From positions 86,187 to 150,186 of the forward strand of contig JAULBX010002113.1 of NCBI GenBank assembly GCA_032358255.1: 64,000 nt of DNA. The letters run 5' to 3'. The notes under the pieces are model-generated. The model did not search any database. It had not been told where the DNA came from and worked only from the letters and a program-made list of their open reading frames with translations. Both the position numbers and the translations under genes were made by a program. This DNA comes from Heterotrichella gracilis. Lineage: Eukaryota > Sar > Xanthophyceae > Tribonematales > Xanthonemataceae. Within the stretch, counting starts at the first letter, position 1. Every line of letters begins with the position of its first letter. Shown here in pieces: positions 3,511 to 63,964 of this stretch.

Positions 3511-6500
3511 ATGCTTGCCTTCGACCTGTTTGTGGTGGGCGCCAGCCTGCTGATGCTGTTTGGCGGCGGCTGGGCCTTCCTGAACCAAACCCTCTACAAG
3601 GACTTTGAGGAGCGCAGCACAGGCATACAGGTGACAACACCCATCAAATGCACATGCATGGGGTTCGCTCCCGTTCATGCCCTCCTCCACCCACAACCAA
3701 GCACACATAGACTAAGCTCTGCACGCACGCCTTGCCATCCCCGCCAGCCTCGCATCCCACTACGCGTGCCACTGACCTGTGTGGGGGGAGCTGGCGGGGA
3801 CGCTGGAGGGGTTGCACATCTTGTGAACACAGTTCAATTCACGTGTGTAATTGTGTGTGTGCGTGCAGGTCCTGTTTTCTCTGGTGTTTGCCCTGTCGGC
3901 TGGCCTGCTACTGCTGTTGCTGTTCGAGATCCTGGATGTGGTGGAACCAGGGTACGCTTAGGTTTTCTGAAATGCACAACTAGGTTTTAGAGAATCACAC
4001 TGTACGAGCATTGCTTGGGTACACCATCCTGTGCCAATCAATGGTGCCACTGTTTTCTTCATGGAGCACAGTTGCGGAACAGAACCACAGCAGCACTGCT
4101 GGCTACCACCTCTTCTCCACCCCTTCCACTTATCTTCCCCTTCCCCCCCTGTGCAGCACCCGCAAGGCCGCCTGGCAGGTTGTGGTGGTGGTGCTGCTGG
4201 CGCTGCTGCTGCTTGTGCTTCCCTACTACCACTGCTACAGGGTACTGGTGGCGCTGCGTAAGTGGAGCCACACTCGCATTGCACATGCAATTGCGGACGC
4301 ATTTGCACACGATTTAGGGCACCTGGTAAAATGTTGCTTTTGTATTTGCCATGCTCACATGGTGCGAATTATTACTACTATTACATGCATTTCAGCACAA
4401 AAGTCCAATCAGGTTGAGTGCTGGTCTGGCTATTGTGGCTTTTGCGCCGGAATGCATGTAGTTGTACTAATACAGTGCAATATGTGCGCTTGAAATGTAC
4501 GCATGGCACGCACCATGACATACGTCCGGAAAGCTTTGGAAGTCAAGTAAATTGGCTGCCATGCGGCATGCTGATTGGCGCACCATCATAGTTTCATACA
4601 TACCCCAACGCTACATATGATTGAGCCCACTTGCATGTGCAGCATAACCAGCCCCCATTCCAGCGTCACAATCCACCATCATCAACCCCCCTCATGCCGC
4701 CGTACCCTCGCCACCACAGGGAAAACCCGGCGTACGTACTATGTGTTGGGTAGCTTCGCATTCCTTGCTGCCTTCATGTGGGCGTTTTGGCGCTTTGGCA
4801 GCACATGGCCGGGGGTCCCTGCGGCGGATGGCGGGCTGTTCAAAATGAACCAGGTGGGTGCCAGGGGATGCATAGAAGGAAACGGGGATGAGGGGGATCC
4901 ATGGAAAAGGTAGTGCTCGAGGGGCAGAGGCATCATTACACGTGCACTGGGGCACACTGCTCTTTGTTATGCAGTTTGGGCACATCACTGTGCCTGCATC
5001 GAGGGTGGGTGCATGGCACTGGTTGGGCAGGCTTACGTGATAGAATTCCACCAACCACACCAATAGCATCGCTCAGCGACCACCAACAGCACACCACACA
5101 CCCTCCCCCCCCATCCTCCTCCCCCCGCTGGTCTCCAGGTGATCAGCCGGGTGGGCGTGATGGGTGTGACCCTAAACCCTAAACCTAAACCCTTGCTCCA
5201 GGTGATCAGCCGGGTGGGCGTGATGGGTGTGACGCTGGTTGCTGTGCTGTCAGGGTATGGTACCGTCAACCTGCCCTACTCCTACCTGTCGCTGTTCATC
5301 CGACCCATCGATCGGCTGGAGATCGCAGCCATGGAGCAGCAACTCATGCAGGTGGGGGGTTGGGGAGGGGGAGAAGGTGGCGCATTTCAGTCATGGTGCA
5401 GGAACTGGTTGTGTGGATGGTCAGCGCGTTTCATTACGTTCTTGTAAGATAATAATCCTACTCCTACCTGTCGCTGTTCATCCGACCAGTCGACAGGCTG
5501 GAGAGTGCAGCAGCTGATGCAGGTGGGGGTGGGGCGGTGGGCGGTGTGTGGGGTGTGTGTGGATTGAGTGGTTATGTGTAATACTGGCTGAAGATGATTG
5601 AGTGCTTACATATTGCATTGCAGCTCTCGCCCATTGAAACGCTACATCCTCGCACAAACCTTGACAAATCCCTATTATGCATGGATTCCATTGCCAACAT
5701 TTAAGGTCATCCCTGACTCAACCTAACCCTCGACTAACCCAGGCTTGCGTGGCATGCCTGAGATTATTCCTGCCCTGATTACCAAGCTCACCCCCCACCA
5801 TACCCCATCCCCATGGACGGTCCATGGAGGCCATTTTCCTTCAAGAAGATGCGCATCGCCCTGTCACAACTGGAAGGGAGTTCACCCAAATCCAAAGTAT
5901 TTCCCCCCCAAACCCATCCCTGCCCCTAGCAAACCCTAAATGATACCCCCCTCCACCTTGCAGTCCATGGAGTCCATTGCCTCAAAGAAGAAGCGCATCG
6001 CCCTGTCACAGCGGGAGGCGCAGCGGCAGCAGGGGCCAGGGGGTGACCAGCAGGCCAGGTCATTTCTGGGGCGACTGGCCAGCAGGGTCATGCGGCGGAA
6101 GACGCCTGCCGAGAACATCAAAAGCACCAAATCAGAGGTGCGGGTTGGGTCATGCTTTTTGGTACCTGCGTTGCAGCTCTGTGCAGCATAGTGTACACCC
6201 TATTTGTGGAGGCCATGGGCTTGGTCAAGGGACTTATACCCCTGTGGATAGGGATACCTTTAGGTGAAAGCTCTTGGCAGCTTCTTTGTAGGGTTTAGGG
6301 TTTAGGGCCCAGCTCTGATTATGAGTCCCCCCCTTACTTACACCCCCTTGGCTTACACCCAAACCCTGTCCTTGCAGGTGAAAGCCCTTGAGAGCCTTTC
6401 TCGCGCCCTGAAACCTCATATCCTTCTAAAATCTGTATGCCAACCCTAAACCCTGTCCCTGCAGGTGAAAGCCCTTGAGAGCCTGTCTCGAGCCCTGTTT

Positions 6501-8137: not shown

Positions 8138-9244
8138 CGGTGGTGTTTCTTGAGGCGGGGTGGGGGTGGCAAGTGGTGTAGTGGCCTAGCAAGGGGGTTT
8201 GTGAGGTGTGCATGGTGGCAACGTGGGCAGTTGAAGGGGTTCCCATCCGGTGTTATGTCAATGTTTCATCCAACAAATACAATTGGGGCAGTGGGGAAAT
8301 GCCTGGGTATTTTTTCATGAATTTAGGAAGCAAGGCTGGGGATGGCGCCGGGGGAGGAACATTTTCCTGGATGTAAGAGGTTGCGGAATAGTGCTTGGGA
8401 GGTGCAATGAGCATAGTGATAGGGTGTGCGATTGGAGGCACCTAAATAAAACAGCGCCTGTAACCACTGCATGCCAGCCACGTCTATAGATGATATAATC
8501 ATATCTGAATGCGCTTCCAATCTTTGATCCACTTGCATTGCAGCACCTACAAAGAAGCACAAAAGGCCAATTAAGGGTCAGACTCTCACGGTGAGACCCT
8601 CGCACGACCCCACCCTTGCTCGACGCGGTGCATTCTGATCCCATCTGCTTTTCAGCAGACAGAGAATCTGAGTGCCGCCACCTCAAGGAATGATCACCAG
8701 TCAGGCTAGGTGACGGGCTACGTCCTCATGAAAGCAACGCGTTGCCAAGGCCTCATGCATGCACCTTCTTGTAGGGTATTCCTATAGGGTTTTGGAAAAA
8801 GTATGCCATATTCCTGGTTTGTGCGCACGGGCAGAGTTGTAGTAGGTATCTGGGCGGAAGTTGAGCTGCATTTACCCGTAACTTTTCCTCCTTATTGGTA
8901 CCAATGCGTCGATGATCTCCAACAGCTAGAACGGGTACGCAAAGCGAGCACGTCACAAGGCGGCCTGGCCAGATGGCGACACGCATTGGTGCTTTAGTTG
9001 GTGGGTGTAAGACTAGGCGTGGTATCTAAACGTCAAGAAACGAATTTTGGGTGTAAAGCAATTTGTGTTGATTCCTCTTCAGGCGCAAGTGCAGTGGCTG
9101 GGTATGCACTCTACAAGCGTCTCCGGTAGGTTTGCATGCATATTGCATGCATATGAGTTATTGCGATATCACTACCCATAACGAGCACCTGAGCACGAGC
9201 ACACTTGACGCAGCTATTTCAAGGGATCTGCACATGACGTGACC
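8138..9244. other. Intergenic spacer, no gene recognised
   Basis: It holds the 3' flank of GPHR and the 5' flank of the UDP-sugar pyrophosphorylase gene. No coding exon or repeat could be supported. Confidence 0.5.
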
Positions 9245-12200: not shown

Positions 12201-14693
12201 TGGCATTGACGTTACCCTAGGGTAGCAGGTATTGCATTCGTGCAGGTACGCCCTCTTGCCGCAACATTTTTCTGTTGCAGTGCATTGACAGCGCCATGTG
12301 CCTGGCTGTAGGTGTGGGCTGCCTACTCGCCTGTGAAAAACTCTCCTGCTGATGCAAGGGCCAAGTCGCAGGGAGGCAACCCATCACACTCCGCCACTAC
12401 TGGTAATGCACATCTCCCTCCCATGGTTGTCCATACACACTTGCCACTTAGTTGCTTGCGTTCCAGCAGTACAGCCAGGTTACCTGTCACCCTTGCACAG
12501 CTTGCGCCACCCGGCTCTATTTTGACAGGCCATATAGGCGTTTGGTATCTGGCATATGGTTAGTTAACTACATGCATTCCAGCATACTTCCAGATTAGCA
12601 GTCAGTCTTGCACATGCGGCGCCAAGCAGCTCTTTCCTGGCACTGGTATCTGGCATATACCTACCCGGATTCCATTATTCAGGCATGTGGTAATGTGGCC
12701 TACTGCGCAGGTGAGCTGGACATCTACAAGGCCAACTGCAAGACGCTCCAGCTGATGGGCACGCCTATGCCACAGGTTAATGCCACCATCTTCAATGGCC
12801 TGGTGGTGGAGCTGTACCCACCCATTGTCTGGGCCCCAGCATTTGCAACGTGCTTTGCAGACCTGCAGGTAGATGTCATTGCCCCACCCTTGTTGGAGAC
12901 GAGTACTTATATGCATTTTAGCAACACCTGGCACAGTACTTCGGATCCAGCAGTCAGCCTTGCACAAATGCAATGCCGTGAAAGGAGATCAAATGCCTAC
13001 CTCTTAGCTGCATCCTTCCAGGAGATCCTCAATCCTGGCGAATCCTCGTGACCAAATATCATTCTAATCCATTAGCATCCCTCACGTGACCGACCATACA
13101 GAGCCACCAAGCGAGCCTCTTACAAAGCTCACAGAGCGATAGCGTTAATGGCTGGAGCCGTATGTCATTTAAAACTAAGGATAACCTCTCTGCATCCCTT
13201 CCAGGAGAAGATCCTCAACCCTGGGCAGATTCGCGTGACCAACAACACTGTGCTGGTCATCAATGCGCCCCACGTGACCATCAAGGGCCTCAAGGTGGAC
13301 GGGGCGCTGGTCATCGATGGGGTCCCAGAGGCTGACATCACTGTTGATGGGCTGGCTGTAAAGAACAAGGGGTGGACCTGGGCTGCGTTGAAGGAGCTGA
13401 AGGAGGGGGAGCAGCCATCGGAGGAGCAGTTAATCAGGTGGGTTTGGGAATTGATTTATATATATTTGTTTTACTATAGGACTCCATGGAATGCCATAGG
13501 ACTGTGGAATGTTATTGAAGGAGCAATTAATCAGGTGGATTAGGATATTGATGATAGGACTATAATTCCATCACTAGGCATTCCCAGATTATCATTGGTG
13601 CAACGCCTGCTTTTCATGAGCAAACAAGTGCGAAGGAAAGCAAAAGGATGCCTTGGTGGGCAACAGATGTTGGTGGATTATACAGCCAGCACAATAACAT
13701 GTTCCTGATACAAAGTGTACGCAGGTTCCTCGTGCCATCGCAGGGACCATTTGCTGCGTACAAGTTACTCATTCACCCGATTTCTATGCAGGGGCTTCAA
13801 GGTGGTGAAGAACGAGACCATGGAGCTGGCATACGGGAGTGCGGGGTCCTATGTGGTACCCGAGCCTGCATCTCCCGAGCAACCCAGCACCAGCACTGCA
13901 CCTGCTGCTGCTGCTGAAGTGGAGCGAAACGCAGAGAGCGCCGAGGAGCAGATCTCGCGCCGGGTTGCGTCAGGTACGCAGTCAATTGCATGCACTTGAC
14001 AAGAACAGAGAGCTTAGTGGTGGCCTGTGCACGGAGCTTGCCACCCGACTGTGTTGGCAAGCTCATGTGTCCCTGTTTGCCTCTCATAGCCATTAGTCTA
14101 GGCTGCACACACTTGTGGTACATTGGAAGTGGCACTGATTCTCAAGTATATCAATGGAATTCCTGGTAAATGGTTACTGGCTGTTGAGACATTATTGACA
14201 CTGTCATTTGCTTGGTATGGTATATCGCATGCATGGCTAGCGTTACCATTGTAGGTGCTGTCAACAAGCTGCGATACAAATGCCTGCTTGGTGTGGGACG
14301 TGCACCACGGTGCCACTGGCATTGCACCGCTTGCATGGCATCGGACCCCATGTGTCTGACAACTCAAGTATTTGTCGCTCAGGTGAGCTGGAACCCGGCG
14401 CCATGGCCCTGGTCCCCAACCTGCCGCATTCCGACTCGGCCGCCTTCGCTACCCCTGCCTACGAGCAAGACATCCACGTGCCCCACGAGGCCAGCGAGTG
14501 GGAAAAGGAGCAGCACATTGTGCACGGCGTGGCAGCAGGCATGGCCGAGCCGCGGCTGATTTCGCTGCTGCCGGACCACCTGTACTCGCCCAGCGTGCCG
14601 GGACCCATGGATGGGGAGGGGGAAAAGCGTGATGCTGAAGGGGAGGGGCAGCAGGCAGCGGAGGAAAAACAGCCGGAGCTAGCGCTTCCGTAG
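9245..14693 (+). CDS. USP: UDP-sugar pyrophosphorylase with C-terminal extension
   Basis: Exons: 9245-9313, 9405-9471, 9581-9703, 9792-9884, 9988-10112, 10343-10522, 10807-11017, 11355-11564, 11844-12052, 12312-12402, 12711-12868, 13205-13437, 13792-13973, 14383-14693. All are in phase, giving 753 aa. The nucleotidyltransferase signature ([18 protein letters not shown]) is at about 126-143. It is followed by [50 protein letters not shown] and FVNPKYAD. The middle and end match plant USP, a broad-specificity cytosolic enzyme that makes UDP-sugars from sugar-1-phosphates and UTP and salvages monosaccharides for cell walls and glycosylation. Plant USPs are about 600-620 aa; the core here ends near [11 protein letters not shown] (about residue 615). 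The last about 135 residues are a low-complexity acidic tail, and its final part is the first unit of a repeat that continues, broken, into the 3' flank. Loss of the tail would not be expected to affect catalysis. Confidence 0.93.
12559..12623. repeat. Dispersed 65-bp repeat, copy A
   Basis: It lies in a USP intron. It is nearly identical to 42253-42318, about 30 kb away in another gene's intron; both end in agtcagtcttgcacatgcgg followed by cgcc. A more diverged relative may lie at 12905-12970. Confidence 0.8.
13012..13110 (+). repeat. Decayed copy of exon-12 start (USP)
   Basis: After a ccttccag acceptor at 13014-13021, the sequence repeats exon 12 (true start 13205) with internal deletions: gagatcctcaatcctggc, then cgtgacca, then a cacgtgacc block. 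The copy starts 183 bp upstream of the true one and no longer encodes the protein. Confidence 0.75.
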
Positions 14694-15125
14694 AGGCCTT
14701 TGAGAGTTACGAGGTGGAGCACATTGTGCCGGGCATGGCAGCTGGCATGGGTGTGATAATATTGTAACTGCCGGACCACCTGTACTTGCCCAGCGTGCCG
14801 GGCCGCATGGACGGGGAGGGGGAGGGGCATGATGCGGAAGGGGAGGAGCGGCAGGCAGCGGAGGAAAACAGCCGGAGCTAGCGCTTGCATAGACGCCTGA
14901 GGGTTGCGAGGTGGAGCACATTGTGCAGGGCGTGGCAGCTGACATAGCGAAGCTATAGCTGATAGTTGGTGTACCCTCTCCCAGCGTGGTGTGTCACATG
15001 GACGGAGGGTGCGGGGGGGGGTACACATGGACTTGATGCAGGACTAGGTTTGGGGGCAGGGGGGTCGCAGCAGGCAGCAGTGGAAAAGCAGCCGGAGCAC
15101 TTGCATAGCACTTGAGAATACAGTG
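14505..15125 (+). repeat. About 200-bp tandem repeat, three units; first unit is coding
   Basis: Unit 1 (about 14505-14712) encodes the end of USP and its stop. Unit 2 (about 14713-14911) and unit 3 (about 14912-15120) repeat the same order of blocks: gagcacattgtg, the ctgtactcgcccagcgtgcc block, gcaggcagcggaggaaaa and cagccggag. Decay increases from unit 2 to unit 3. Units 2 and 3 have stops and indels. Confidence 0.8.
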
Positions 15126-16001: not shown

Positions 16002-19000
16002 CTACAACCCCTCCTCCATCTCCTCCCTTGCCCCACCACCACCCACCGCCGCCTCATTGGCACAAAGGCTTGCCAGCACCCGCAGCACATCCGTGGTGGT
16101 GATGATCCCAGCGGGTCTCTCATCCTCATCCACGATGTACACCCGGTGGATCCTGCGCTCCACCATCGCCCCCATCACCTCCCGCAACGATGACGTGGCG
16201 GTGCATGTGGCCAGCAGGGGCGCCTCCACCCCGTCCGCGTCGCCCCCCCACACCCCATAGGCGTCGGACATGTGGTGCGCCACGTGGCTCACCTGGAGCC
16301 AGGATTAGGGTTTTAGGGTTTAAAGTTTAAAGCTTAGGATGGATTGGGGATTCTATAGTCAGCAAGATATCAAACGCGCATGTGCAGATAAGGCAGCCCT
16401 TCAAGAATGCCTCCAATGGTGCCACGCTGAAATAGATTTACTGAATATCTTATGTTTATATTATTCTACATTTATTGCGACTTTATTTATTTACTAACAT
16501 TTATTGATGACAAATACAATTATTTGTCCATTCACTCACGTGATGCCAGCCGGTCACGGCGCCCGGTGTTCCCCCATCCAGGTGTCGCTGTCGCAGGAAC
16601 TGCTCCACTGGGGTGGCCAGTGCTTCAAAGTACTGTGGCAGCAGGCCGCGCAGGTCAGTGACTGACAGGTTGCCTAAGACTCGGCCATGGCCTGCGGCAA
16701 GGAGGGAGGGGGGCGTTCAGGCTTACGGGTAAAAGAGTCTAGGGTTTAGGGTTAGAGTCTAATTACGAGAGCATGTCAGAGGGCCAAAGCCTCTTTCCAC
16801 AGGCGTTCATGCAGGGGCAAAGCACAAGCCAGGCAAAACACATGCACCCCCAAAGCCCAGCCCAACTCACCATGCAGGTCAATGATGCCTGCTGACGACA
16901 CCCCCGAGGCATACATGGCCGCGAACGCATTGATTGTGGGCATGTCTGATGGCACCGACACCACGTGGCGCGTGCCCAGGTCTAGCTGCTCAACAGCGGC
17001 GTCCATCAGAGGCCCCACCTCCTGTTGGTGCTGGTAGATGAAGCTGCGCACAAGGGTGGGGGTGGGAATAAAATACAAGAGATGATAAGGTGAGGGTTGA
17101 GGGTTTAAGCTTGAGGATGAGAGTTTAGGTTGAGGATGAGGATGGGGTGGGGTTGCAGGGTGGTGTGGGTGTGTGCGAAGAAAGTACACACAAGTGCAGT
17201 AAACGGGTCCAACACCTCTTTCCTTACATGATGCAATGAGTGATATATCCAGCTGGGTTGTCAACCAAATACATCGCAAAAAAGTAACCATTCTATCCAG
17301 CGGCACAGCTAGATTGGGGGTCGTCCTTACATGCTTTGGAGTTGTTTGTAACATCACCAGCTAGACAGACACGACCCGATGATGGCCATGATCGCCCCTC
17401 GTCACTTGCAACAGTAATACCGTGGGGGTTTACAAGATATTTACCATTGCAAGTGACGGCGGTCAATGATGGCTATCCACCGGATCACACATGACTGGAT
17501 GGTGATGTTTGTGATGCGGATGGTGAGGCATCCACGGGATACCATGTATACTGGCTAACGATTCTTGGTAAAGCTCTCGCAAGGCACAAAAAAGCCTACT
17601 TCTTTATTCAGACTCTGTCACCTAACAACAAAGCTTGCGCAGCCTATCCCATGCCCAGTCACCAGATCATGCCTAAATGGCTGACGGTATGCGGAGGCGC
17701 ATTGTGGGCCACCCACCAAATCATGCCCAACGTACTGACGAAAAATCTGTGATGCGTATGGTGGGCCACCCTAATGCCAACCCTACAACACATGGCCACC
17801 ATGTGTAACTGACTGCCGTATCTGTGGTGCGTATTGTGGGTCACCCACCGGATCATGTCTGACTGGCTGATGATGTTTGTGATGCGGATGGTGGGGGTGG
17901 CCACGCGCTGGTCCTCCCCCCACGCCCGCTCGTAGTCAAACACCGCCACCCGGTGGCACACGTAGTGGTTGTCGTACTGGCGCAGGAAACCCTCGGTGAT
18001 GGCCTGAACGGCAGAGGGGGCGGGGGGAGGAATCATTGACAGCAGGCAAAGTACATGTCAATATGGGAAGTTGCAGGGACACCTTGACAACCCTAAAGAA
18101 CCCTTAACACACAGGCTCCTAATGCTGCCACGGTGGCGCACGTAGTGGCTGTCGTACTGGCGCAGGAAACCCTCGGTGATGGCCTGGACCGCAGGGGTTG
18201 GCATATGTAGCTTATTACATGCGTTTTGCAAGTACAGTCAGCTTGAAACTGGCGCCATTGAGCAGCATGTGCAATGATATTACGCAACCACGTGAGCCCA
18301 GGTGGGCCACATGCGCAGGGCCCAGGCAAGAGTCCGCCCCACCTCCAGCAGCGATGCATCTGCGTCTGCCTGGAGCAGCAGCCGCGCATCATCCCCAGCC
18401 ACCACGTCGCTCACACTGCTGGAGGCAATGGCTTCCCCTGCGCACACGACACACAGGCTGTAGGGTTTAGGGTTTAGGCAATGGCTTCTCCTACGCACAC
18501 GACACACACAGGCTGTAGGGTTTACAGTTTAGAAAATGGCTTCCCCGCACACACAACACAAAGCTTGAGGGTTTAAGTATGGTTTCTCGTGCACCCACCA
18601 CACACAGCCTGAGCGGGTGTTGTTTGTTGCACCAACAGAAGCCATGATTGATAGTCAGCACGCTTTGGCAATAGAAATAGTATGTTTGTGCAATTGCCAG
18701 TGTGCAAGGTGTGCCGACCATGCCACAATGTACACCCTGAATTTGCAGTGCAATCAGGTGCAATGCATTGAGCTGCACTGAATTTAAGTCAAAGTATGTA
18801 TTGCGTTGCATGCCATTACGCTGGTGGACAATGCACTTGCCATTATTCGAACTGCCACCTCCCCCTGTTCACTGATGGTTGCACGCTCACCTGCCTGGCG
18901 CAGCCGCTGGCTGCGTGCATCGTGGTGCAGATCCCGCACATTGCACATGTCCAGCACCGCCCGCAGGATGTCGTTCAGGTCCAGGAAACCCTACAGAGGT

Positions 19001-40275: not shown

Positions 40276-42897
40276 ATGCGCTGCACAACCTTCGGCAAGA
40301 GCAACTCAACAGCCAGCAGCAGTAGGTGTGGGCAGGTCACCCGCGCAGCCCTTGCCCCTGCCAGGCCTGGACTTGTGGAGCGACCTAGCGAGGTGCAGCC
40401 TGGTGTGAGTGTTCCTCTCATTTGAACTTGAACAGCCTATGTCTGACCACAGCCCCTGGTTAAAGCTCATCCCTGCAAACCAGAGTCCACCTTTGAGTCT
40501 AGTCTCTTCTTCCGCATGGGAAAGCCATGAAAGGACATGCTTGAGCACATCTTTATACCCATTCTGGCTGCGTCTGCATGCAGGGGTATGCAGGTCTGCT
40601 CCAGGAACTCACTCTGCAGATTCAGCAGGAGGAGGCCCGTGTGACCGTGGTGGAAGGTGACATCCGCAATGCAACCGATGGTCTTGCCAAGGCGCTTGAA
40701 ATTGACCACAAGAAGCTGGAGGTGTTCTGGCTAGGACGGCTGGAGCTGCACGAACAGGAAAAGAAGGCCCGGGTGGAAAAGGCAGACAGTCTGCGTGCAG
40801 GTACAAACTAGTTGGTTAACTGTTTCTACTATGTTGCTGGGTGCATAGTGAGCAAACGCTGGTAGACATTGCAAAGATTCCTTCTGCACAGCTAGCAGCA
40901 CAATTTGCATATGTGGTGTACTCAAAACCGGTGATATACCCAAAATGCTGTATTTAGTCGTTGTCAGGCATTTGACTTTACCTCAGCAAAGTGACATCAT
41001 AAAAACATTGTACATAGAAAATTTGCACCCCTTTCTGGCAGCCTGGTGGGTGTACCCGTGCCAGGGTGCAGGGTGTTGACATCTTAGGGGTTGCGAGGCG
41101 CACTCCTTTGGGGCGCAAAGCGCAATGGGTACGTGGGTTAATTCATCGATTAAATAAAAATAAATCATATTAATTAGCTCGTAGTTTATGCTATTAACCA
41201 CTACATGAGATAAATTAATGCTTTTAATGTGAGTTACTCTAATAAAGAATGATTTAAATTAATCTTCGCGCCCCAAATTTGGGAGCCTTGCGGGCACACC
41301 CGCTGCGCCCATGCACTGCGCCCGGTCAGCAGAGCTGTGCCCTGCCCCTAACCGCTACCCCCCTGTCCCCCCATACGGGTCCACGCCCGTGCTCCCTGCA
41401 CCCTGTCAGTCGCTGCCTTCACTGCAAGCAAGTGCGCGGATGGCTCATTTATGAAGCACATGCACATGGGCATCACGGTATTTGCAACACCGCAATTTAG
41501 TTTGCCAGCCATCATGCTTGGAGGGTAAAAGCCCTTGCCAGCGTAGTTGCCATTCCATGGGGAATTGTGGCTGCTTCGATCTTGCTGCTGGTGCCTGCAA
41601 GTCGTCTGTGCAGGTGTCAAGTGTGGGGACGCAATATCAAGTTGTGCACAGGAAACTAAACACGTGACTCAGTACTTTCCTGTGGACGTTGCAGTGGCGT
41701 CAATGGTGAGGGGTTCTGAGTTTGGGAAGGATACAGTGCATTTGCGGACCTCTTGCGGTGAATACGACTCCGAGCTCGCAAAGTGGGTGTGTAGGCGTGG
41801 TGCGACTTCCTTGAAGAATCTGGGGCATGCGCTGCACTTCCACCTGGGCCCATCAATCAGGGCTGGCACCGATGGTCAGGGCCTTGGTCAGACCCTCAAG
41901 GTGAGCTGCGATTTCTGCAGGGTTTCAATCGCTGCTGTCGCAGTGCTTGATCACCTCAAAAATTGAGATTTAAATGCAATTGCGGTAGTGTCGACTACCC
42001 TGTCCAGCCCTGCCAAGGTCAAGTTTACTTCACAGGTTCTAATTACAGCATAAGGTGCTGCGCATTCATGTTCTTTTATCGCATTTTTATGTACTTTTGC
42101 GTCCCTTGCCTGATCCTGCTTATGCCCTCGTGACGACACCAGCATATGCATGGGTCACTCAAGGAAGCATGCATGCCCAGATCCTTTCAGTTGTTTCAAA
42201 TATGAAGTCTTGGGGGGGGTAGACTTAAATTGAGCATCCCCTTCAACCCTGTGTTAGTTAGTTACATGCATTCCAGCAAAATAGCCAGATTAGCAGTCAG
42301 TCTTGCACATGCGGCGCCTTCAATCCTGTGTAGCACCTGATTTGCCGAGAACAGATAGTGCACTGCATGCCAAGCTGCTCTTCCTCAGCTTGCTTTTTCA
42401 AATTGGACATCTGTGCTCTGCAGGAGATGGGGGGTCAGGCAGTTGACATCGGCGCCAAAGAGTGTCCCGGGCAGGACTGGTGGGCGGCGGACTGGTCGGA
42501 GGCCATCCTGAACCATCCATATTGCCGCGAGTCGTGCGCAGCTGGTGAGTTTCTGGCGATGGCAGGGGAGGGCAGGCCTGCAGAGTCTCTGGTGGCGCAG
42601 CTGCACATCTGCTTCTGGTGGATCAGGCGCAATGCAGGGTGGGCTGAAGACCTTGCTCCCATCCTTCAAAAATATCCCTTTGCGCCCATCCTTGAGATCC
42701 CTGCTTTGGTGGAGAAGATCTTTGAGGAGGTTCCTGTCCTTGCTACACCCTGCAAACCCAAGCCAGCTAAGCCAGCACGGGTGAGGTCCCCCACCAGGCG
42801 CTGGCGTCGCATCAAGGGGGCTGCGCGCAACACGACCCGCAAGCAGGCCCACACCACCGAATGCCTCAGCGCTTGCGCCTCGGATGCCAGAGCTTGA
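40276..42897 (+). CDS. Unrecognised protein with N-terminal coiled coil
   Basis: Proposed exons 40276-40404, 40584-40800, 41614-41900 and 42424-42897 are joined by GT-AG in phase to 368 aa. I do not recognise the family. Residues about 44-115 (GYAGLLQELTLQIQQEEARV and what follows) are charged and heptad-like, suggesting a coiled coil. Exon 3 has scattered Cys/Trp/His (TSCGEYDSELAKWVCRRGAT). Exon 4 begins EMGGQAVDIGAKECPGQDWW and continues with a Trp/Cys-rich segment (WSEAILNHPYCRESC), a helical part and a basic tail (RSPTRRWRRIKGAARNTTRK). The phase agreement across four exons supports a gene; the start is the first ATG of exon 1 and could lie upstream. A donor-like GGTGAGT at 42544-42550 could end exon 4 early. 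Domesticated transposon or novel lineage-specific protein are both possible. Confidence 0.5.
42253..42318. repeat. Dispersed 65-bp repeat, copy B
   Basis: This is the partner of 12559-12623. It lies in the last intron of the unrecognised gene, about 100 bp before its acceptor, and differs from copy A by only a few bases and one length change. Confidence 0.8.
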
Positions 42898-43638: not shown

Positions 43639-43704
43639 TTTTTGTTTTATGTTAAACGTAGTGTAGCTTGGTTTTTGTTTTATGTTAAACGTAGTGTAGC
43701 TTGG
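43639..43704. repeat. Perfect 33-bp tandem duplication
   Basis: Units 43639-43671 and 43672-43704 are identical (tttttgttttatgttaaacg plus 13 more bases). The lack of divergence suggests a recent slip or duplication. Confidence 0.9.
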
Positions 43705-44426
43705 TTCAGACTGGTCCAGAACTTTAGAGATAATGAAAGTAGGAAAAACGGACCACCCACACTGTGTTAGGAGACCAGCCAGGTACACCACACCAGATGT
43801 GCTCAACCTGGCTAGGCACAAAGACCGCTATAGCATAGCCTTGTCAAGTAATTTCGTACTGCTGCTTGAGGTTGTACATTGTTCAAGTAATACCTTGAGC
43901 CTCACAGCAGCTCACAGCCTATGAGAGCGCACAGGGCAATTATTGTATTGTATAGTCACTATGTATAGTCATGATGACTACTGGCAAAAGGTATTTCTGT
44001 ATGCAAAGTAGTAATATTGGAACACTCGTGTCACTGAGTGCCCCGCTATGACACTGGCAGGGAGCCATTGTTCATTGCCACATGGCAGGTGCAGCAAAAT
44101 GCTCCCTATTACTCAATAGAAAGAGCCAATTGGACATAAATGTAATATCGATATTATTGCAATTACGGGATTAGGTGGACATGCCCATTGCCAGGCTGGT
44201 GATATCAGGAGTATTTGAGCGAGGGGCTCACAATGATGCAATCAGCCCGGTGGTCGCTGTTCTGACGGTAGTGGTAGTTGAGAGACAAACTGGCACTTGG
44301 ATAATATAAATTATGTTACAGTATGGGGCAAAGTAGTAACTCCAGTTAATCGCATCATCTTGTACACTGAATACAAAGGTCTATAATATGGCTTGTGCAA
44401 CAAGTGACAACTAGGGGATCATGCAG

Positions 44427-48852: not shown

Positions 48853-51800
48853 ATGGGGAAACCCATGGGCAAGGCCAAGCCTAAAAAGGCCCCGAGTGGC
48901 AAAAAGCAAGGCAAGAAGCAGCCAGAGCCAGAGCTCCCTTCGGATATGGAGGACGAGGTTGACAAATTCCACAAGAGCAAGGACTTCATCGCCCTCAACG
49001 CAGGTGGGGAGGGTGGTGCATGGTACCAAGGGTGCTGCACTAGACACAGGAGGGTCACGGGCCCCTGCCTTCACTTCGTCCTGCTCAAGGACAGGCTCTG
49101 CAAAAAAGTGCGATTGATAGGCTGCGTAGTCGTTGGTAGGTCTATGCCTGAGTGCAACAGGTGCAGTGTGTGAGGGGAGGGACAAACACTGGCGTAAGTA
49201 CACCCCCAAAGTCACTTCACCGCCGTGCTTGTGCACCTGAAACTATAATAAACTACCTATGTGCCCTTCTCATGGTTCTTGCACGTTGTAGCGCGAGGGT
49301 CCGGACATACGCAATATACACAAGGTGCAATGCCTCAGGAAGTATACCTCCTTGGTTAGCAAGCGCCCTTCTCAGCACCTGGTCCCTGTGCAAAGACAGG
49401 CTGCACAGGTGTTAACCAATGCTTGTCCCTCCACGCAGCTGAAGACACGCCTTCAGAAGACGACAGCCTGGACGAGGAGGGGGTGTTTGATTTGGACGAG
49501 GACAGCGAGGACTATGACAGCGACGATGACGTGGCACAGAAGGGGAGGATAGGGAAACGTGAGTAGCGGGTCATTGTTCATGCTGGCAGCGGGTCTTTGG
49601 GCATACTGGCAGGCAGAGGAATTGGTCATGCGTTGTGTCATGCAGGCATGCCGAGCTGGGAGTGGCCCCTGTTTCATAGCTCCAAACCTTAAGTCATGGG
49701 TCCTTGCTGTCCTGCAGAATTGCGTAGCAAACCTATCCAAACCTTATGGCACAGGTGCGGAACCCTTGCCCTGACTCCGCAGTGCACAAGTTATCAAGGT
49801 CATCAAGGTTAGCGCGGAAGCGCTGTAAGCCAAACCCTAAGCCATACACCCTAAGCCGATAACCCTTGCCCCACCCTGCGCAGTTGCCAAGCAGGCGCGG
49901 GCCATCAAAGCCCAGCTGCAGATACACCCTAGGCAAACCCTAAGCCATAGACCCTAAGCCGTAACCCTTGCCCCACCCTGCGCAGTTGCCAAGCAGGCCA
50001 GGGCCATCAAAGCCCAGCTGCAGATACAGCAAGGGGAGGACAGCGATGGCGAGTCAGAAGAGGAGGATGACGAGGAGGGGCCTGCACCAAAGTGGGGGGC
50101 AAACAAGCGCGCATACTACGACGCAGACAACGTCGATTATGAGGTGGGGAGCAATAGCTGAACAGGGGTGTATTGGTGAATTGAGCAGGGAAGGGGGTAT
50201 CTGCTGGGGGTGTGTTAGACGAATATTGAGCAGGGGATGGGGCATCTGCTGGGAGGCATGGTAGGAGTACTGGCGCTGGACACGGAACGGCATGTGCATC
50301 TGCTGTCTGTGTTTAGTGCGTGCTGCAAGTGAGTGGGTGGGGAGCTGTTTTGGAGCGGAATGGGAGGTGGTATAATCATGAGGATGCAAGCATGCCTACC
50401 ATGCACTAACCGCACAAGGTGTAAGTGCTGGAAAGCACATTGCACCAATCGCGGGGCAGCATAACAACACAATACTGTCCAACCAGTGCAGCGCATAAGC
50501 GTTCACCACCACAGGCTTTACCTAGACCCACAAACCCCATACTAATCTGGCTGTGCTGCTGGACCGCATGTAAGCAAGTATGTATAAACCTCACATGTGT
50601 CCCCTTTGTGCAGTTGACGGACGATGAGGAGGCTGAACAAGACGAAGAGGCAGAGGCCAGGCGCATGCAGCAGGTGGCGGCGGCTGCGCTGCGGCCCGAG
50701 GACTTGGGTCTGGAAGGGGAGGGGAAAGATTCCGAGGAGGGAGAGGAATCGGAAGAGGAAGGGGAGGAAGGGGATGACGTGCTGGGGCTGAAGGCGTCCC
50801 AGGTGCGTGCGGGGTTGTTTTGAGCCATCGGATGCCATCCAATGTGTTTGGACCCTAGGGGGTGCCATGCCATGTGCCCTGATTTCCAGTGTACGAGGCG
50901 TGCAAGAGTAGTGGTCTTGGGCTGGGGCTTGAGGCCTACCAATGTGCGTGCCTTGGAACTCAATCACAAGCAAATCCTTGTAATCAAAGCTCTGGCGCCG
51001 GCTGTATGGCTTATGCAATCAATGCCAGTATTGCTCATTGCGCACTTCCATCTGTTGAGAAATATGAAAAATATGTACAAGCAAAGTGAAACAACCTATG
51101 ATGAAAAAAACACGAGTGAAACGCAGAATCACAACAGGAATGAAGCCCTTTCATTGTTTCACAGGATGTTGAGGCTGTTGAGCGGGACCTGTCTGGGTTG
51201 AGCCATGATGAGAAGATGCGCATCGTTGCCGCCGACGCGCCCGAGCTGCTGGCGCTGGCTGGGGAGCTCAAGGGGTGCCTGGCGGAGGTGACGGGCAGGG
51301 TGGCGCCCACGCTCAAGGAGGTGAGGAGGGCTGGGGTGGAGGGTTGGGGTTGTAGGGTTGTATGAGGGCCTAGGGGGGATGACAGGCAGGGTGGCGCCCA
51401 CGCTGCTACTGTACCTGGAAACCAGGCACCTGCTGCTGCTGGTTTGCTGCATTCCACCACCACCACCACCACCACCATTTCCGCCATCACCACCACCACA
51501 TAACCTCTCCCCCGCTCGTTCAGGTTCAATCCGGCGCCCTGGCCACCTCTGAGGGCCTTTCCTACCTTGAGGCCAAGCACCTGCTGCTGCTCAGCTACTG
51601 CACCCACATCACCTTCTACCTACTGCTCAAGGCGGAGGGCAGGCCAGTGAGGGCGCATCCGGTGGTGGACAGGCTGGTGGAGATTCGAGCATATCTGGTG
51701 GGTGGGGAGGGACGGGGGGACTGTTCTGAGTTGTGTGTGTGGAGATGAGGGTATACCCCAGTGGTAGACAGGCTGCTGGGTGGTGGTGGGTGTGTGGTGT

Positions 51801-54800
51801 GTGTGGGAGGGGGGGCGTTTGGGGGCTGTTTGGAGGTGTGTGTGGGGGGGGAGGAGTGTGCATCCGGTGGTGGACAGGCTGGTGAAGATTTGCGCGTACC
51901 TGGTGGGTGGTGGGGATGCGGGTGGTGGGGGGTAGGGATGGGGTGCCAGCGGGGGGTGTTTGGAGGTGGTGGGTGGGGTGTGGGTGCACCTGGTGGTGGA
52001 CAGGCTGGTGGAGATACGTGCATACCTGGTGGGTGGTGGGGGGGATGGGTGTGTGGAGTTGCGTGTGTGCCTGACGGGTGGGTGGTCGGGGGGTGCGGAC
52101 ATGTAGTGGGGCCGGCAGCATTTGCTGTTCCCCATTGCTCAGCACCATACCCATGAACCAGCCTCCTCTCTCCATATATCAAACCATGCACAAGGAACCC
52201 CTCTCCATGCTGTCACTGTGTGACACACCCCGCTCTTGTGGTCCAATCGCCAACGCCGCACCATTTGCAAAAATCACCCCCACCTGACCAACCCCTGCCC
52301 CCCACCCTTTTTGCAGGAGCGCATCCGGCCCATTGACAAGAAGTTGCAGTACCAAATAGACAAGCTGCTGGCGGCGGCTCAGATGGCAACCGAGGGGGGG
52401 CTGGCGGGGGCAGAGGAGGAGGAGGGGCCAGGGGAGGGCGAGCAAGACCCGCTCTCATTTGCGCCCAAGCCGGACCAGTTGGTGCCCAAGGTGGGTGCAT
52501 GCATGGGGGACAGGGAATGGTGACGCAGTCTGCACAGCTAGCTGACCTTTGCCTTAATTGGCATGCCTATACGTTTGATCGCCGGTAACTGAGTCTCTAG
52601 AGTCTCTGGGCGCTGTACATGTTGGATGCCGGAAACGAGGAGTTAAGTTGTTTCTAGGATTTCAAAATGCATGCCAAATTGCATGTGATTACCTAGCCCC
52701 ACAACTTGTGTTCTTATCCACCCACAACTTGTGTTCGTATCCACCACCCCTAGCTACCTTCTCACTGCCTGCTCCCACCCGCAGGTTGCTGTGGATGAGG
52801 ATGGTGGCGCAGGCGGGGTGTACCGCCCCTCCAAGCTCAACCCCGTGTCCATGGAGGGGGAGGAGGAGGAAGCCAGGTGGGCGGGGAGGAAAGACAGGCA
52901 GGACAAGCACCTGCGGCAGCGGGCAGCGCGGAGCGCACTGGTGCGCGACTGAAACCCCCACAAAACCCTAACGTTGTACCTACCAGGAACCCTGAATAAG
53001 CAGGGCAAACACCGGTGGCAGCGAGCGGTTTAGTGCGTGCGTGAAACCCTAGCGAACATGTGACACAAGCCCCAAACAGCAAGAACCATGGCATGCTCCT
53101 GTTGACATGCCTCGTGCATCGTGTGGCTCCCTGATCACTCTTTACAATCTCATGCATGCTACCACTCTCCACATGCCCATCACACGCTCCCCACCGCATT
53201 CCTCCCACAGCAAATGATCATATAAATAATAGCAATAACTCCCACCTCCCCTAGCCTAATCCCCACCCCCTCCCTCCCCTAGATCCGCGAGCTTGCCGCT
53301 GAGATTGAGGGCGCCCCCCTTGAGGTGCGAGACACAGCGGTGGGCATGGACAGCGGGGCGGCGCTGCGGCAGCGGCACAGGCTGGAGGCCAGGGCTCAGG
53401 AGGAGGAGGACCTCATGCTGCGGGTGCCGCTGAGTAAGGAGGAGTTGAAGCAGCTCAAGTCGCAGGTGAGGGTTTTTATAAGGTCGAGGTTAGGGTTTTG
53501 GGGTGATGTTAAGGTCAGGGTTTATGGGTGGAGGCTTTAGGGTTTAGGGTGTAATTTGCAGGTAGTGCGTTGGGCAGCGGGAGGAGGGATTGGTGCATTC
53601 AGGTATGGTTGTCAGGGTTTAGGGTGTAAGGTTGTATGTACACAGCATGAGGCTGAGGCAGCTTACGGCACGGTTGCAGCGACCCTAGTGTAGGGTTTGG
53701 GGGCAAGTTGGAGACGTATCAAAGGTTTGAAAGAGTTTGGGGGCATGGTGGTAAAGGTCATGCTGAATCACGCATCTGCATATGGACCTGGTGCAGGTGA
53801 CGCCCTGTGGGCAGGGGTGCGGTGATTACAAAACATTCCTCGAACTGAATGCCACTTGGCATGATAGACATTTTCTACCCATAGAATCTGAGCACCCCAA
53901 TCCCCACCACATCTTTCAAAGGTATAGGACATCCTAGGATCACAAGGTATTGCTTATTGGACTGTGGCTGAGTTGGCTGGCATTCCAACTTGCTCCTGTA
54001 GTGGTTTTGATCATTAGGCAAATTACCTAAACCCTGAACAGCATTGTAAAAAGGAGGTTTGTTTTTATAAATGTCATGCCCCCAGCAAGTTTCAGCGCTT
54101 GCAATCGTTGGCAAACCTGCAAGAGTCGTGTAAGGTCTAGGAAGGAAAAACCTACAGTGGTAGCAATATCACAACTGACGGGTTGTAGGGTTTGGGGTTT
54201 AGGGTTTAGCGATGTTCCAGGCATATTCGGCAATCACTTTGAGTGACCATGTAAGGGGGTGCTATGATTACAAACCTTAGACTCCTTGAACTGAATGCCA
54301 ATTGGCATGACAGATTACCCATACATACAAACCCTGAGCACCCCCAGAACATATCAGATCTCTCGTTGTAGGGTCTAGTGCCCATTGTCTAGTTTTCTGT
54401 GCAGTTAAAGGACTGCAGTGAGGTGCCTTGCCATCGTGCGGTTGCGAAAAGGGGTGCAGTGATTACAAATCGAGAATCAATTCTGAATGCCATCTGGCAT
54501 GACAGACACATCTACCCATAGAATCTGAGCACCCCATGCTCGCCACTTCTTTCAGACCTCACATGTGTCTACTGTTCAGGTTTAGACACAAATGGCGATG
54601 ATACCTGGTTCTCCCTTTTGGTCAAGACCCTCATGACCGGCTTTGCAGACGATGTCACCGACCTAGTCAACATGTATCTCCTTCAACCGAAATACCTTTT
54701 TTTTTTTTTTTTTTTTTTTCAACCAAAATAAAAAGAATCACGACTGCACGCGTACCTTGTTTATCTAGTACTGAATCCAGATTTTGAGCCTCACTCGCGC

Positions 54801-56262
54801 CCCGCTCCCCGCCTGCAGCGGCGATCCGGCATGTCCGGCAAAGCCCTCATGGACGACTTTGCGGATGACGTCACTGACCTGGTCAATATGGCTGAGCGGG
54901 TGGGTAACCCCAGCAGCAGCGGCGCCGGCGGCATGGGCGACCTGTTCAACCGCCACAAGCTGTCGCAGAAGTACGGTGCGGACTACGCGGCGCAGCAGGG
55001 GAAGAGGAATCGATCAGGTGGGGAGGGGAGGGCGTCCCGGGGGCGCTGGTCCCCGGTGTGGGATGGTGATGAGGGGAGGGGTGGAAGGTGATGGATTCCA
55101 ATAGATGTAACTAATATCCCGGGGGTGGCGGGAAGGGGGGGAGTGACTTCTACAGTAACAAAGTAAGGCAAAATATTACAGTAAATCATGTTAATAAAGT
55201 TGGTGTTTTTATTTAATTTTATAGTGTATGGCCGCGATTGCCTTGCCACTTGGGTGCCTTACCAATTTCCTGCCTCTCCCATGGCAGCAGATCAAATGGC
55301 GGTTACCCCACATCACCTGCAGACCATCGCACCGAGTTGCAGTAGCCTCCGTGGCGCTTCTCACCCCCATGTGGTCTGCAACATGCAAAACGTAAACCCT
55401 AAATCCTAGCACCTCGACACACTGTCGCCCACTTCAAACCTACGCCACCCTCCCTCAACCCCCCACCCACCCACCCACCCACCTTCACCACAGGTGATGA
55501 CGACCTACCCACGCGGGAGCCCCTGGGCGAGCGCAGGGCCAAGATGGATTCGGTGCGTGCACGCAAGATGATGGCAGCCGAGGACGCCATGGGTACCCTA
55601 GGGTTTCCCAAGAGGGTGCGGGAGGAGGACGAGGTGTACACGCAGGCCAAGGAGGGGGCGGCTGCCAAGAAGAAGGCGCGCAAGGAGGTGTACAAGTGAG
55701 TGGAGTAGCGGGGCTTCATGTTGATGTGCTTCTTTGGTTTCTAGGGTGGTATGTGATGGGTTGGTAGGAGGTGTGCCGGTGAGCGGGTTAATAGACGTGT
55801 GCCGGGGTTTCAAACAGCGTTTGCATGCTTTGCAAGTGAGGGTGGGGTGCACACGCCGGCCAATGAGGCACAGTCACAGGTGCGAGGGAGGCTGATCTCC
55901 CCATGCCTCCACAATTGCCGCCCCCACTTAACCCCATGCATGCTCGTATCCAACCCCCCCCCCATGGCCCCTAACCCCCTCCTCCCCACCCTCCCCACAG
56001 GCGCAAGGACCTGCTTCCCCCCCTGGCAGACCCCACCGCCGCCACCGCGCGCGCCATCGGGGCGACCATCGAGAAGAACCGTGGCCTCACCCCACACCGC
56101 CGTAAGGACATCAAGAACCCCCGCAAGCATGCGCGTGTCAAGCACGCCGCCGCGGTGGTGCGCCGCAAGGGCCAGGTACAAGAGGTGCGCACCCCCGCGG
56201 CCACCTATGGCGGCGAGGCCACGGGAATCAAGTCGCGGGTATCCAAGTCGACGCGGTTTTGA
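48853..56262 (+). CDS. UTP3: SAS10/UTP3, small-subunit processome protein
   Basis: 12 exons: 48853-49003, 49439-49558, 49986-50143, 50614-50802, 51165-51320, 51524-51697, 52317-52490, 52785-52940, 53283-53465, 54819-55017, 55494-55695, 56001-56262. All are in phase; 707 aa. The N-terminus is basic (MGKPMGKAKPKK) and followed by acidic blocks (DLDEDSEDYDSDDD; later an E/G-rich run in exon 4). The central Sas10/Utp3/C1D domain spans exons 5-7 (YLEAKHLLLLSYCTHITFYL, HPVVDRLVEIRAYLERIRPI, DKKLQYQIDKLL). The C-terminal Sas10 domain is highly typical: EKNRGLTPHRRKDIKNPRKH, VVRRKGQVQEVR, YGGEATGIKSRVSKSTRF. The protein acts in the nucleolus in 18S rRNA processing as part of the U3-containing processome. 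Several introns carry exon-end copies, and the intron before exon 10 carries three hairpin elements. Confidence 0.94.
49866..49985 (+). repeat. 102-bp tandem duplication of intron end plus exon-3 start (SAS10)
   Basis: The acceptor and first about 47 bases of exon 3 occur at 49884 and again at the true start 49986. Both are preceded by aacccttgccccaccctgcg cag. The interval contains ccctaagcc-type runs. The first copy reads into a stop, so the second acceptor is the coding one. Confidence 0.85.
51362..51452 (+). repeat. Chimeric copy of exon-5 end and exon-6 part (SAS10)
   Basis: It begins with a copy of the exon-5 end (gacaggcagggtggcgccca cgct) and continues with a copy of the exon-6 segment (accaggcacctgctgctgct). 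The sequences come from both sides of the intron in which it lies. Confidence 0.75.
51460..51503. repeat. CCA trinucleotide run
   Basis: An interrupted (CCA)n microsatellite lies in the intron just upstream of exon 6 of SAS10. Confidence 0.85.
51748..52045 (+). repeat. Three copies of exon-6 end with donor (SAS10)
   Basis: The true end (about 51650-51705: ggtggtggacaggctggtgg, agat..., catatctg gtgggtgg) is echoed near 51756-51785 (partial), 51860-51911 and 51985-52037. The last two keep the acctg|gtgggt donor context. Confidence 0.82.
53814..53898. mobile_element. MITE-like hairpin element, copy 1
   Basis: 85 bp starting GGGGTGC and ending GCACCCC, with a central ATGCCA-NN-TGGCAT palindrome. 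It lies in the long intron before SAS10 exon 10. See copies at 54256-54344 and 54451-54535. Confidence 0.72.
54256..54344. mobile_element. MITE-like hairpin element, copy 2
   Basis: 89 bp with the same GGGGTGC...GCACCCC ends, the gattacaaa segment and the ATGCCA-AT-TGGCAT core; more diverged in the right half. Confidence 0.7.
54451..54535. mobile_element. MITE-like hairpin element, copy 3
   Basis: 85 bp, the same ends and core as copy 1 and the same length. The right part (catagaatctgagcacccc) is identical to copy 1. Confidence 0.72.
54640..54676 (+). repeat. Decayed copy of exon-10 segment (SAS10)
   Basis: ctttgcagacgatgtcaccg acctagtcaacatg matches exon 10 at about 54857-54891 (the D-D-F-A-D-D-V-T-D-L-V-N-M codons), with silent-type and other changes. 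It lies about 215 bp upstream, in the intron. Confidence 0.8.
54682..54730. mobile_element. Poly-T tract flanked by a 13-bp direct repeat
   Basis: About 23 T (54697-54719) is bounded by ttcaaccgaaata (54682-54694) and ttcaaccaaaata (54718-54730). It resembles a retroposed poly-A tail with target-site duplication and no body, but slippage duplication is also possible. Confidence 0.5.
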
Positions 56263-61460: not shown

Positions 61461-63964
61461 ATGGAGTGGGGCTGGGGTGCCAACTCTTTGCCTCTGCTGG
61501 TCCTTGCAGCATTCATCGTCAGCTGCAATGGAGCAGTTATCACGTTTGACAGCCCATCTGTATCACTGGACTTGTCACTCGATGTGGCCACCAACCCCCT
61601 AATCAACCCTTCCTCTGTATTTGGGGTCCTGTCCCAACCCCAGGGATACACCAATGCAATCAATATAACAGGTGGGAAAGGCATTCATTACAATTTACTG
61701 ATTGGCTGCAGCAATCATTACTGCAGCCTGGGTGGCACAACCCACGCTTCGGTTGACTCACTCTGGGTGCGGGCTATACCTGCCTATCACATAGCAATAA
61801 TCATGATCTTTCTGATTGATTACCAAATCATTGTTTCCTTGCAGCCCTGGGAACTTTTGCTCAGGGACTGGTGGGTCTGTACCACTTTGACACAACAAGC
61901 ACTCTTGTGTCGGGGAGTGGCGCCATCATTGTGCGGGGATCGTCACCAGCTGCAGTGGGGGCGGACGCAATCATTACTGGGGATTCAAATGTGGCCGCGC
62001 TTGTTCCGGTACGGCTCAGAAATGGGATGAGAGCATCACGCCAGCACATGTGCCTGTCAATTGACAGCATTGCCTAACTCTATAAACAAGTAACAAGCAT
62101 GATAGCATTTGAAACTAGTCTGCATGATAATATCAATAAATACTATATGTGAATTCACCTAATTATATTATTTTCTTGTACCCCAGGGACAGTATGGCAG
62201 CGCCCTCAACCTGCCTGCCGCCACCGCCAACTGGGCGCAAATCCTCCTCGGGGCTTGGCGCCAGGACCAGCCTACAGTGGGGATGGCTGCGGGGCTATGG
62301 GTGCGGCTGAGCAGCGATGCAGGGGGGATGCTGATGGAGAGGATGGTAGGGGAGGGGTTGGGGTTTAAGGTTTAAGGTTTATGGCTTGCATCCTACTTTA
62401 TCCATTTGAGCCATGTGCCAGGTGCTTTACTTGCATTGGCTAGAAGTCAGAGGTAATATGTATTGAGGATGCAAACATGCCACCCAAGCACCTCAGAACT
62501 GCCACACACACCCTGAAACCTACCCTTGCATCCTAATCCAACCTGAAATTTGCTGCTTAGCAACTTTGACATAATCATCAACAAGCCCTGCAGCAAGGTC
62601 AGCTGCATGCTGCGTGATGCACCATATCCCTGGCCCAATGCCAAAGAACTATTTAGGGGTTAGGGTTTGGGGTTCATCCAATGACACTTAAGCCTTGACA
62701 TAAGCTTAACTGCGTCAGCTTTGCTGCCAGCACATCTGGCTCAACAAAGGTTTGCTCATTTTCCCATTCGCTGTCTGCCAGTTTGACAACTTTGACATCA
62801 ACTTCAATGGGCCCCGCGACAAGGCCATCATCTGCATGCTGCGCGACTCAGCGGGGGCCTTCCCGGGCATCACAGCGTACTATTCCTGGCCCAAGAGCAC
62901 ATGGATGCACGTGCTGTGCAGCTATGATGGGGCGGCCAAGCAGGCCACGCTGTATGTGAATGGGAGTTTGGTGGCGGTGCGCAGGAAACCCTGGCAGCCT
63001 TGAAAAACCCTATCAATACCCTAAAAGGTCGTCAGCTGTCATGCAGTTTCTTAAGAGCCCCAGCCAGTACGCAAAAACAGCGCACATGCTGAAGACACCC
63101 TGCCCCTTTGCCACCCACTAATCCCCCCTTCCCACCTTAAATCGCACATCCCTCTCACACTCACTCCCCTGTGGCACATGCACCGCAGGCGGGCAACATC
63201 ACCTTTGCCAACGGCCTCTTCCAGCACGGTGACTACATGCCCGTGGGAATAGGCAACAGGGCGGGGTCCCTGGGCGACCCCGGCCAGTTTGCAAACAGCG
63301 CGCATGTGGTGGGGGCGGTGGATGAGGTGGCGTTTTGGGGCAGGCCAATCAGTGCCAGCGAGGCGCGCCAGCTGGCGCGGGCTGAGGGGCCGATTACTCC
63401 GTTGCCTGCTGTTGGATTTGACTCACATGACCTGGTCAAGGTGGGGTATGCTATGCAATTTGCACCTGGGTGGGCACCCAAGCATAATGTTTAACATACT
63501 TGAATATCTATTTGTACAATTGTTAACCCGCAGCCTGGGACCCCTCAAAACCCTGAAGTTGTAACCCTACCCTTGCCCGCAGTCTGGAGGCACCCAATTC
63601 CCACCAGCATCCACCAGGCGTAGGCGCCTCCATACCCACAGCCACACCACCCACCAGCCACTCACATCTAAGGGCGCACGCCGGGGGCTGCTGGCTGTCA
63701 GCCCGCGACCACCACCACCACCACGCCGGTCACCACCGCCGCACCCACCACCACCACCACGCCCGCGACCACCGCCACGCCCACGCCCACCACCACGCCC
63801 ATCACCACCACGGCCAAGGCCACCACCACCACCACGCTCACCACCGCCGCCCCGCCCACACCCACCCCCACGCCCACCACCACCATCATCACCAGCACCT
63901 CCACCCCCGCGGTCACCACCACCTACACCACGGCCACGGCCACCACCCTCACCCTCACCCCCGG

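Follow-up and report, generated by a model that had tools for sequence, protein, structure and literature searches.

The origin of intron sequence is a long-standing question, and the stretch of DNA analysed here raises it in a form in which part of the source can still be read. The window, that is the whole stretch of 64,000 nucleotides taken from contig JAULBX010002113.1 (positions 86,187 to 150,186) of the alga Heterotrichella gracilis, contains genes whose introns carry copies of the edges of their own flanking exons, called echoes in this work, along with telomere repeats, the copies being of many ages. A preliminary description of the window had reported such decayed copies on both the donor and the acceptor side, and had explained them by short local duplication at exon borders. 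The observation is confirmed. Seventeen of the 19 positions then listed fall inside a local direct repeat detected by self-BLAST or Tandem Repeats Finder, positions 5456 and 17474 being 1 and 3 bases off the direct repeats 5457-5540 and 17477-17528, and exon-edge echoes have been found in several contigs.

The window is a portion of contig C23 of an assembly of 68.5 Mb and 903 contigs (GCA_032358255.1). Together with eight stretches of 20 kb drawn from other contigs it makes up a main sample of 224 kb and 370 introns, on which the gene finder was trained. Gene models are ab initio predictions made without RNA; predicted exons shorter than 30 bp located between introns were merged with the introns ahead of counting, and introns within one gene are non-independent observations. 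Contigs C1 and C100 were excluded ahead of all counts; the stretches L003-L004 (C1) and L021-L022 (C100) have a GC content of 36-37%, and may belong to another organism or compartment. When each intron was compared with its own exon borders, matches with a score of at least 34 were found for 62 of the 740 borders, 33/370 at donor and 29/370 at acceptor sides. Random borders gave 2 matches in 21402 comparisons, other borders on the same contig 1 in 5272, own exon interiors 3 in 482, own borders reverse-complemented 0 in 740; shuffled introns, compared with the donor border only, gave 0 in 370. In the main sample, short local duplication at exon borders is far more frequent than chance would have it. 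When repeated hits were counted, using up to 300 bp of exon per border, 57 of the 370 introns were found to hold 78 echoes, 9-410 bp off the junction. The effect is strong but patchy, and its rate varies much among genes. The share of introns carrying echoes ranges from 0 to 38% among stretches, and two paralogs of the ABC transporter gene of the window have echoes in 5/13 and 0/16 introns, respectively (random borders 1/1416, reversed borders 0/58).

Echoes are anchored to the junction. Echoes cover 6-10% of the exon bases nearest to the junction (first 40 bp), and at most 1% of those beyond 80 bp. The nearest 60% of the intron, measured from the own junction, holds 38 of 42 donor-side and 35 of 36 acceptor-side echoes. 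Once low-complexity sequences were excluded, 113 pairs of local copies were counted within 1 kb, 111 direct and 2 inverted, and in only 4/113 were both copies exonic. With echoes masked, duplications were found at 63/705 exon edges vs 25/2294 intron-internal pseudo-edges (odds ratio 8.9), and at 38/705 vs 8/2294 (odds ratio 16) when a score of at least 50 was required; the choice of masking matters for this result, about 9-fold with masking and 2.2-fold without, and both values are reported. A duplication boundary placed exactly at the splice site was considered and discarded: among 42 better-preserved echoes, 20 match at most 8 bp past the junction, the others 10-69 bp.

Once formed, echoes decay like non-coding DNA, without coding constraint. 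In 50 echoes, mismatches to the exon amount to 0.097, 0.077 and 0.168 at the three codon positions, a pattern to be expected of a freely drifting echo and of an exon whose changes fall mostly on third positions. Of 20 indels, 17 disrupt the reading frame. Copies of many ages coexist, as the preliminary description had held, and identity drops with distance across 82 echoes (rho -0.32, p = 0.003). Judged by eye, echo introns are not clearly longer than their counterparts in paralogs.

The second component of these introns is a telomere-like repeat. Of the intron 7-mers with 60 or more occurrences, the 14 most strongly over-represented are the rotations of TTTAGGG and of its complement, and no others. 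In seven contigs six tandem units of TTTAGGG lie in the first 300 bp, oriented as at a telomere, for which reason TTTAGGG is very likely the telomere repeat of this alga. The six-unit run has further occurrences besides those at the seven contig starts; the three-unit run has 834 matches, and among the matches listed none is closer than 1.9 kb to a contig start. Outside the echoes, telomere-like bases amount to 61.6 per kb in echo introns vs 14.7 in other introns, and a telomere-like 7-mer is present in 40 of 57 echo introns vs 119 of 313 others. Among 15 stretches, the share of introns with echoes correlates with the density of tracts in introns (Spearman 0.83), a density which counts tracts within echoes too. 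The clearest case in the window is the interval 5133-5236 (forward strand) in the GPHR gene, where the acceptor-side echo 5133-5173 is a copy of the exon start 5196-5236 (97.6% identity), and the spacer between the two, 5174-5195, is nearly pure telomere repeat in C-strand orientation, (CCCTAAA)n.

Tracts are oriented with respect to the exon. Spacers separating the junction from its nearest echo contain 29 G-strand vs 10 C-strand tracts on the donor side (34 spacers), and 1 vs 22 on the acceptor side (31 spacers). These figures replace a first count (46:13 and 1:27), in which spacers overlapped and tracts were counted more than once. Counting by spacer, the G-strand runs outward in 16 vs 4 donor-side spacers, 14 being undecided, and in 12 vs 1 acceptor-side spacers, with 18 undecided. 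In the spacers, therefore, the G-strand mostly runs outward from the exon. Addition of repeats by telomerase to both ends of a break alike, which would place the G-strand at the left and the C-strand at the right of each spacer, was rejected, because orientation follows the side of the exon and not the position in the spacer. In introns lacking echoes tracts are also denser at the donor side, where the 50 bp next to the donor hold 4.3 and 3.9 per kb and deeper positions 0.9-1.9, and the gradient is weak at the acceptor side. Of the earlier interpretation, short local duplication at borders is retained; the link to the telomere, the orientation of tracts, the unevenness among genes and the history of paralogs were missing from it.

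Paralogs of the ABC transporter gene provide hints about age. The comparison covers the gene of the window, and tiny predicted exons were disregarded. Six of its seven echo introns share their position with an intron in L025 or L026, two paralogous stretches, and the corresponding echoes thus arose in old introns; the intron 31470-31899 has no counterpart in either. One donor junction (exon end 34738-34774) was compared in five paralogs, for a total of ten contexts and 45 pairs, so that single p values need correction. The context following the echo of the window resembles that following the used exon end in L025 (p = 0.0004) and L032 (p = 0.0016). For the context following the used end of the window, a resemblance was found to the context of the middle echo in L026 (p = 0.0016), but none to the used-end contexts of L025 (p = 0.13) and L032 (p = 0.93). 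To judge from these contexts, different paralogs seem to have come to use different copies. The earlier suggestion that the process moves splice sites is partly backed, at this one junction, where the intron context downstream of the echo is the used-end context of paralogs, with the reserve that gain and loss of units are inseparable. A simple inward ratchet was set aside, since the used contexts of L026 and L025 also resemble each other (p = 0.0004); besides gains, there may have been losses or exchanges of units. In a tree of the five paralogs the window and L026 are sisters, with weak support (0.648).

Introner elements similarly make intron sequence grow recurrently, but do so as element families inserting whole introns; here no shared element family was found, and no insertion of a whole intron was seen. 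When 72 spacers were compared with the sampled DNA, matches between contigs were telomere-like motifs, a few short matches not inspected individually, and, for one spacer, a repeat of about 86 bp. The spacer 33607-33737 found no second match in the whole genome. The notion that the spacer is a mobile element was accordingly dropped, no family having emerged from either search. The lack of a spacer family, and the location of most tested introns at positions shared by paralogs, argue against introners, and the distinction from introners drawn in the preliminary description holds for these two features.

How could such structures be formed? Our leading reading, a tentative one to which we give nearly even chances, is that echoes are what remains of small duplications in direct orientation, arisen by the repair of staggered double-strand breaks at exon edges. 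A staggered break would occur at, or slightly within, the edge of an exon. Both overhangs, of about 20-100 nt, would be filled in, doubling the exon edge together with its splice site; the excess of direct over inverted pairs is what fill-in predicts. The gap would take filler, often a few TTTAGGG units, furnished perhaps by telomerase, perhaps by capture. The event would be tolerated because the splice site is also duplicated: either copy may restore the message, one would be used, and the other, along with the filler, would become part of the intron. Exchange between nearly identical copies could then add, remove or swap units, while the unused copy would decay neutrally. All this suggests that introns partly grow from misrepaired breaks at exon borders. 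A more specific scenario, possible though doubtful, is that break-prone exon edges are healed like chromosome ends. The outward overhang would gain telomere repeats, the C-strand machinery would fill in, and the ends would be joined. Since each healing event would push the old junction into the intron, introns would grow from their edges, and part of their sequence would be fragments of telomere repeat and exon ends in decay. Either way, the system would open to test the concentration of breaks at exon edges, the action of telomere enzymes on internal breaks, and the role of splicing as a shield against insertions.

Several results weigh against repair of staggered breaks as an explanation. 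Fill-in leaves unexplained both the excess of exon edges over intron-internal positions and the length of spacers. The gaps between copies are mostly 20-350 bp, and a few are 3-22 bp, so that copies are not contiguous or nearly so; in our judgement spacers of 20-350 bp are long for filler. With echoes unmasked, the count is 63/705 exon edges vs 36/1036 pseudo-edges, an excess of 2.2-fold per base searched. As to telomere repeats, in 17 of the 57 echo introns telomere-like 7-mers are absent outside the echo, and in 32 of the 65 spacers next to the nearest echo a tract is lacking or neither strand prevails. In introns lacking echoes, the tracts located in the 50 bp after the donor exhibit no orientation bias (37 to 40), and the polarity seen in echo introns is for this reason not fully explained. 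The nearest echo is the youngest in 11 of 18 cases (p = 0.48). At the ABC junction, compared in five paralogs, contexts have been swapped, and gain of units is inseparable from loss. A clean empty site was not encountered. Moreover, in a second sample, made of four fresh 10 kb stretches with 48 introns and 96 borders, own-border matches were 2/96 (in 2/48 introns), random matches 2/4176 and reversed matches 1/96; taken alone, this sample reveals no clear excess.

Duplications might instead be equally frequent throughout the gene, with splicing only letting those that span a junction survive. This view, which we deem unlikely, is in keeping with the modest deficit of unmasked pseudo-edges, with the rarity of pairs in which both copies are exonic (4/113), and with two duplications at predicted 3' ends that span a predicted stop codon, one in a stretch of contig C5 (1875-2242), one in the window (14506-14945), as a survival filter predicts. 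Yet, neutral duplications internal to introns should then outnumber those at junctions, and the masked counts tell the opposite (25/2294 vs 63/705); a faster decay of intron-intron pairs, as gauged from the decay of echoes, would explain a factor of about 1.5. The spacers of 20-350 bp would be old intron sequence if the exon edge had been pasted into the intron from a nearby template by synthesis-dependent strand annealing (SDSA), a process named repair-mediated duplication. It has a vertebrate precedent in PMC2671141, where closely linked copies reach 619 bp and include splice sites, and one inverted exon is shown. The probability that it accounts for echoes is nonetheless low: we would expect copies in both orientations, whereas direct pairs are 111 and inverted pairs 2, exon interiors are hardly copied (3/482), and telomeric tracts are located at the used exon edge.

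The order of events could also be the reverse. Fragile telomere-like tracts sited near exon edges may have come first, and may break repeatedly and cause duplications, being in such a case no filler. Interstitial telomeric sequences reportedly promote rearrangement, to go by the title of a 2024 paper (PMC11626172); stretches rich in echoes are rich in tracts, and the concentration of tracts at donor edges is shared by introns lacking echoes. We consider this improbable in view of the echo introns, 17/57, devoid of any tract outside the echo, and of a polarity which is mirror-symmetric around the exon, rather than tied to the direction of transcription. It is very improbable that selection maintains echoes as exon ends used alternatively or in mutual exclusion. 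Some are called in-frame mini-exons by the gene finder, but the codon-position pattern is that of a free echo and a constrained exon, indels are mostly out of frame (17/20), and a GPHR protein built with a single copy per edge aligns to its Myrmecia homolog over 473 columns with 7 gapped positions. Assembly error, finally, is hardly credible: all evidence here comes from assembled contigs, but the copies are 2-30% divergent, and similar cases are found in more than one contig and among paralogs.

Mutations of this kind are known. In PMC7215372 and PMC2246262, telomeric insertions accompanied by direct duplication are described at breaks in vertebrates, with target duplication at 3/66 horse, 6/130 rodent and 4/25 primate interstitial telomeric loci; one of the two papers, on horse and human loci, deems the distribution compatible with random insertion. 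Such loci resemble those described here in having short tracts of the organism's own telomere repeat inside chromosomes, some with target duplication, and differ in that tracts are here tied to exon edges and duplications. Small tandem duplications produced at 3' overhangs by CST-Pol alpha fill-in and end joining (PMC8355091) are likewise direct, tens of bp long, and involve a telomere-maintenance complex; the relics found in this alga are sited at exon edges, and copies are mostly separated by spacers. SDSA duplications (PMC2671141) are close copies possibly including splice sites, while those found here are almost exclusively direct and junction-anchored. In models where introns are gained through tandem duplication or the repair of staggered breaks, as outlined in PMC3443670 and PMC2891723, an exonic piece is doubled along with a splice signal, and splicing rescues the gene. 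In the tested gene no new intron is seen, and the echo is close to the junction it copies rather than at the opposite end of the intron. For Lipomyces stwintrons, duplication of the donor by staggered-break fill-in has been proposed (PMC7138796), but involves 4-7 nt, whereas 20-100 nt are duplicated here, at acceptors too. A description of the exon-edge focus and the telomere link was not found in our literature search; the exon-edge pattern is absent from the titles and opening abstracts of the matches listed, in a search whose coverage leaves out most subscription journals.

The remaining echoes of the window lie on the forward strand, unless stated otherwise. Among the proteins listed, those of Myrmecia and Coccomyxa are closest to the predicted GPHR protein (57% identity each), and none comes from a closer annotated relative; taken by itself, this affinity would point to a green alga in the vicinity of the Trebouxiophyceae. 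GPHR, ABC transporter and CBS domains were identified by Pfam in the submitted proteins; the names USP, SAS10 and LamG derive from the preliminary description and the predicted proteins. In the GPHR gene, the donor-side echo 5457-5540 is a copy of the exon end 5275-5371 (77%, self-BLAST), and the acceptor-side echoes 5820-5874 and 6358-6410 are copies of the exon starts 5963-6016 (85%) and 6445-6497 (92%). By eye, 6262-6290 looks like a third, more decayed copy of a GPHR exon start, followed by TTTAGGG repeats. The USP gene has an acceptor-side echo at 12999-13055, copy of the exon start 13184-13242 (79%). In the CBS-domain gene, on the reverse strand, the echo 17477-17528 is a copy of the exon edge 17845-17896 (87%), and either member of the pair 17951-18017 / 18131-18197 (92.5%) may be the used one; further on, also on the reverse strand, an array of 2.9 units of 55 bp with TTTAGGG tracts (18423-18575, Tandem Repeats Finder) includes position 18479 and overlaps a predicted exon edge.

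In the ABC transporter gene, the acceptor-side echo 30113-30181 is a copy of the exon start 30289-30358 (86%), and either copy may be in use in the pair 32000-32097 / 32190-32287 (90%). Four donor-side echoes follow: 32961-33024, copy of the exon end 32788-32850 (84%); 33738-33781, copy of 33563-33606 (91%); 34342-34398, copy of 34244-34303 (83%); and 34841-34877, copy of 34738-34774 (92%), which marks the junction compared in the five paralogs. The SAS10 gene carries an acceptor-side echo at 49828-49926, copy of the exon start 49931-50028 (95%) with degenerate telomere motifs, two echoes of the same exon end 51647-51741, at 51854-51922 (84%) and 51978-52069 (79%), and a further acceptor-side echo at 54628-54674, copy of the exon start 54844-54890 (81%). 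In the LamG gene the acceptor-side echo 62561-62617 is a copy of the exon start 62787-62846 (77%).

Other repeats were encountered along the way. The duplications that span predicted stop codons, 1875-2242 in the C5 stretch (L009) and 14506-14945 in the window, perhaps reflect the same type of event at the other coding border. A perfect tandem repeat of 2.1 units of 33 bp resides at 43639-43706, within a predicted intron and at no exon edge. A repeat of about 86 bp, which may be a short mobile element, is dispersed over several contigs, and occurs in the window at 12448-12633 and 42253-42318, and in the stretches from contigs C25, C40 and C8.

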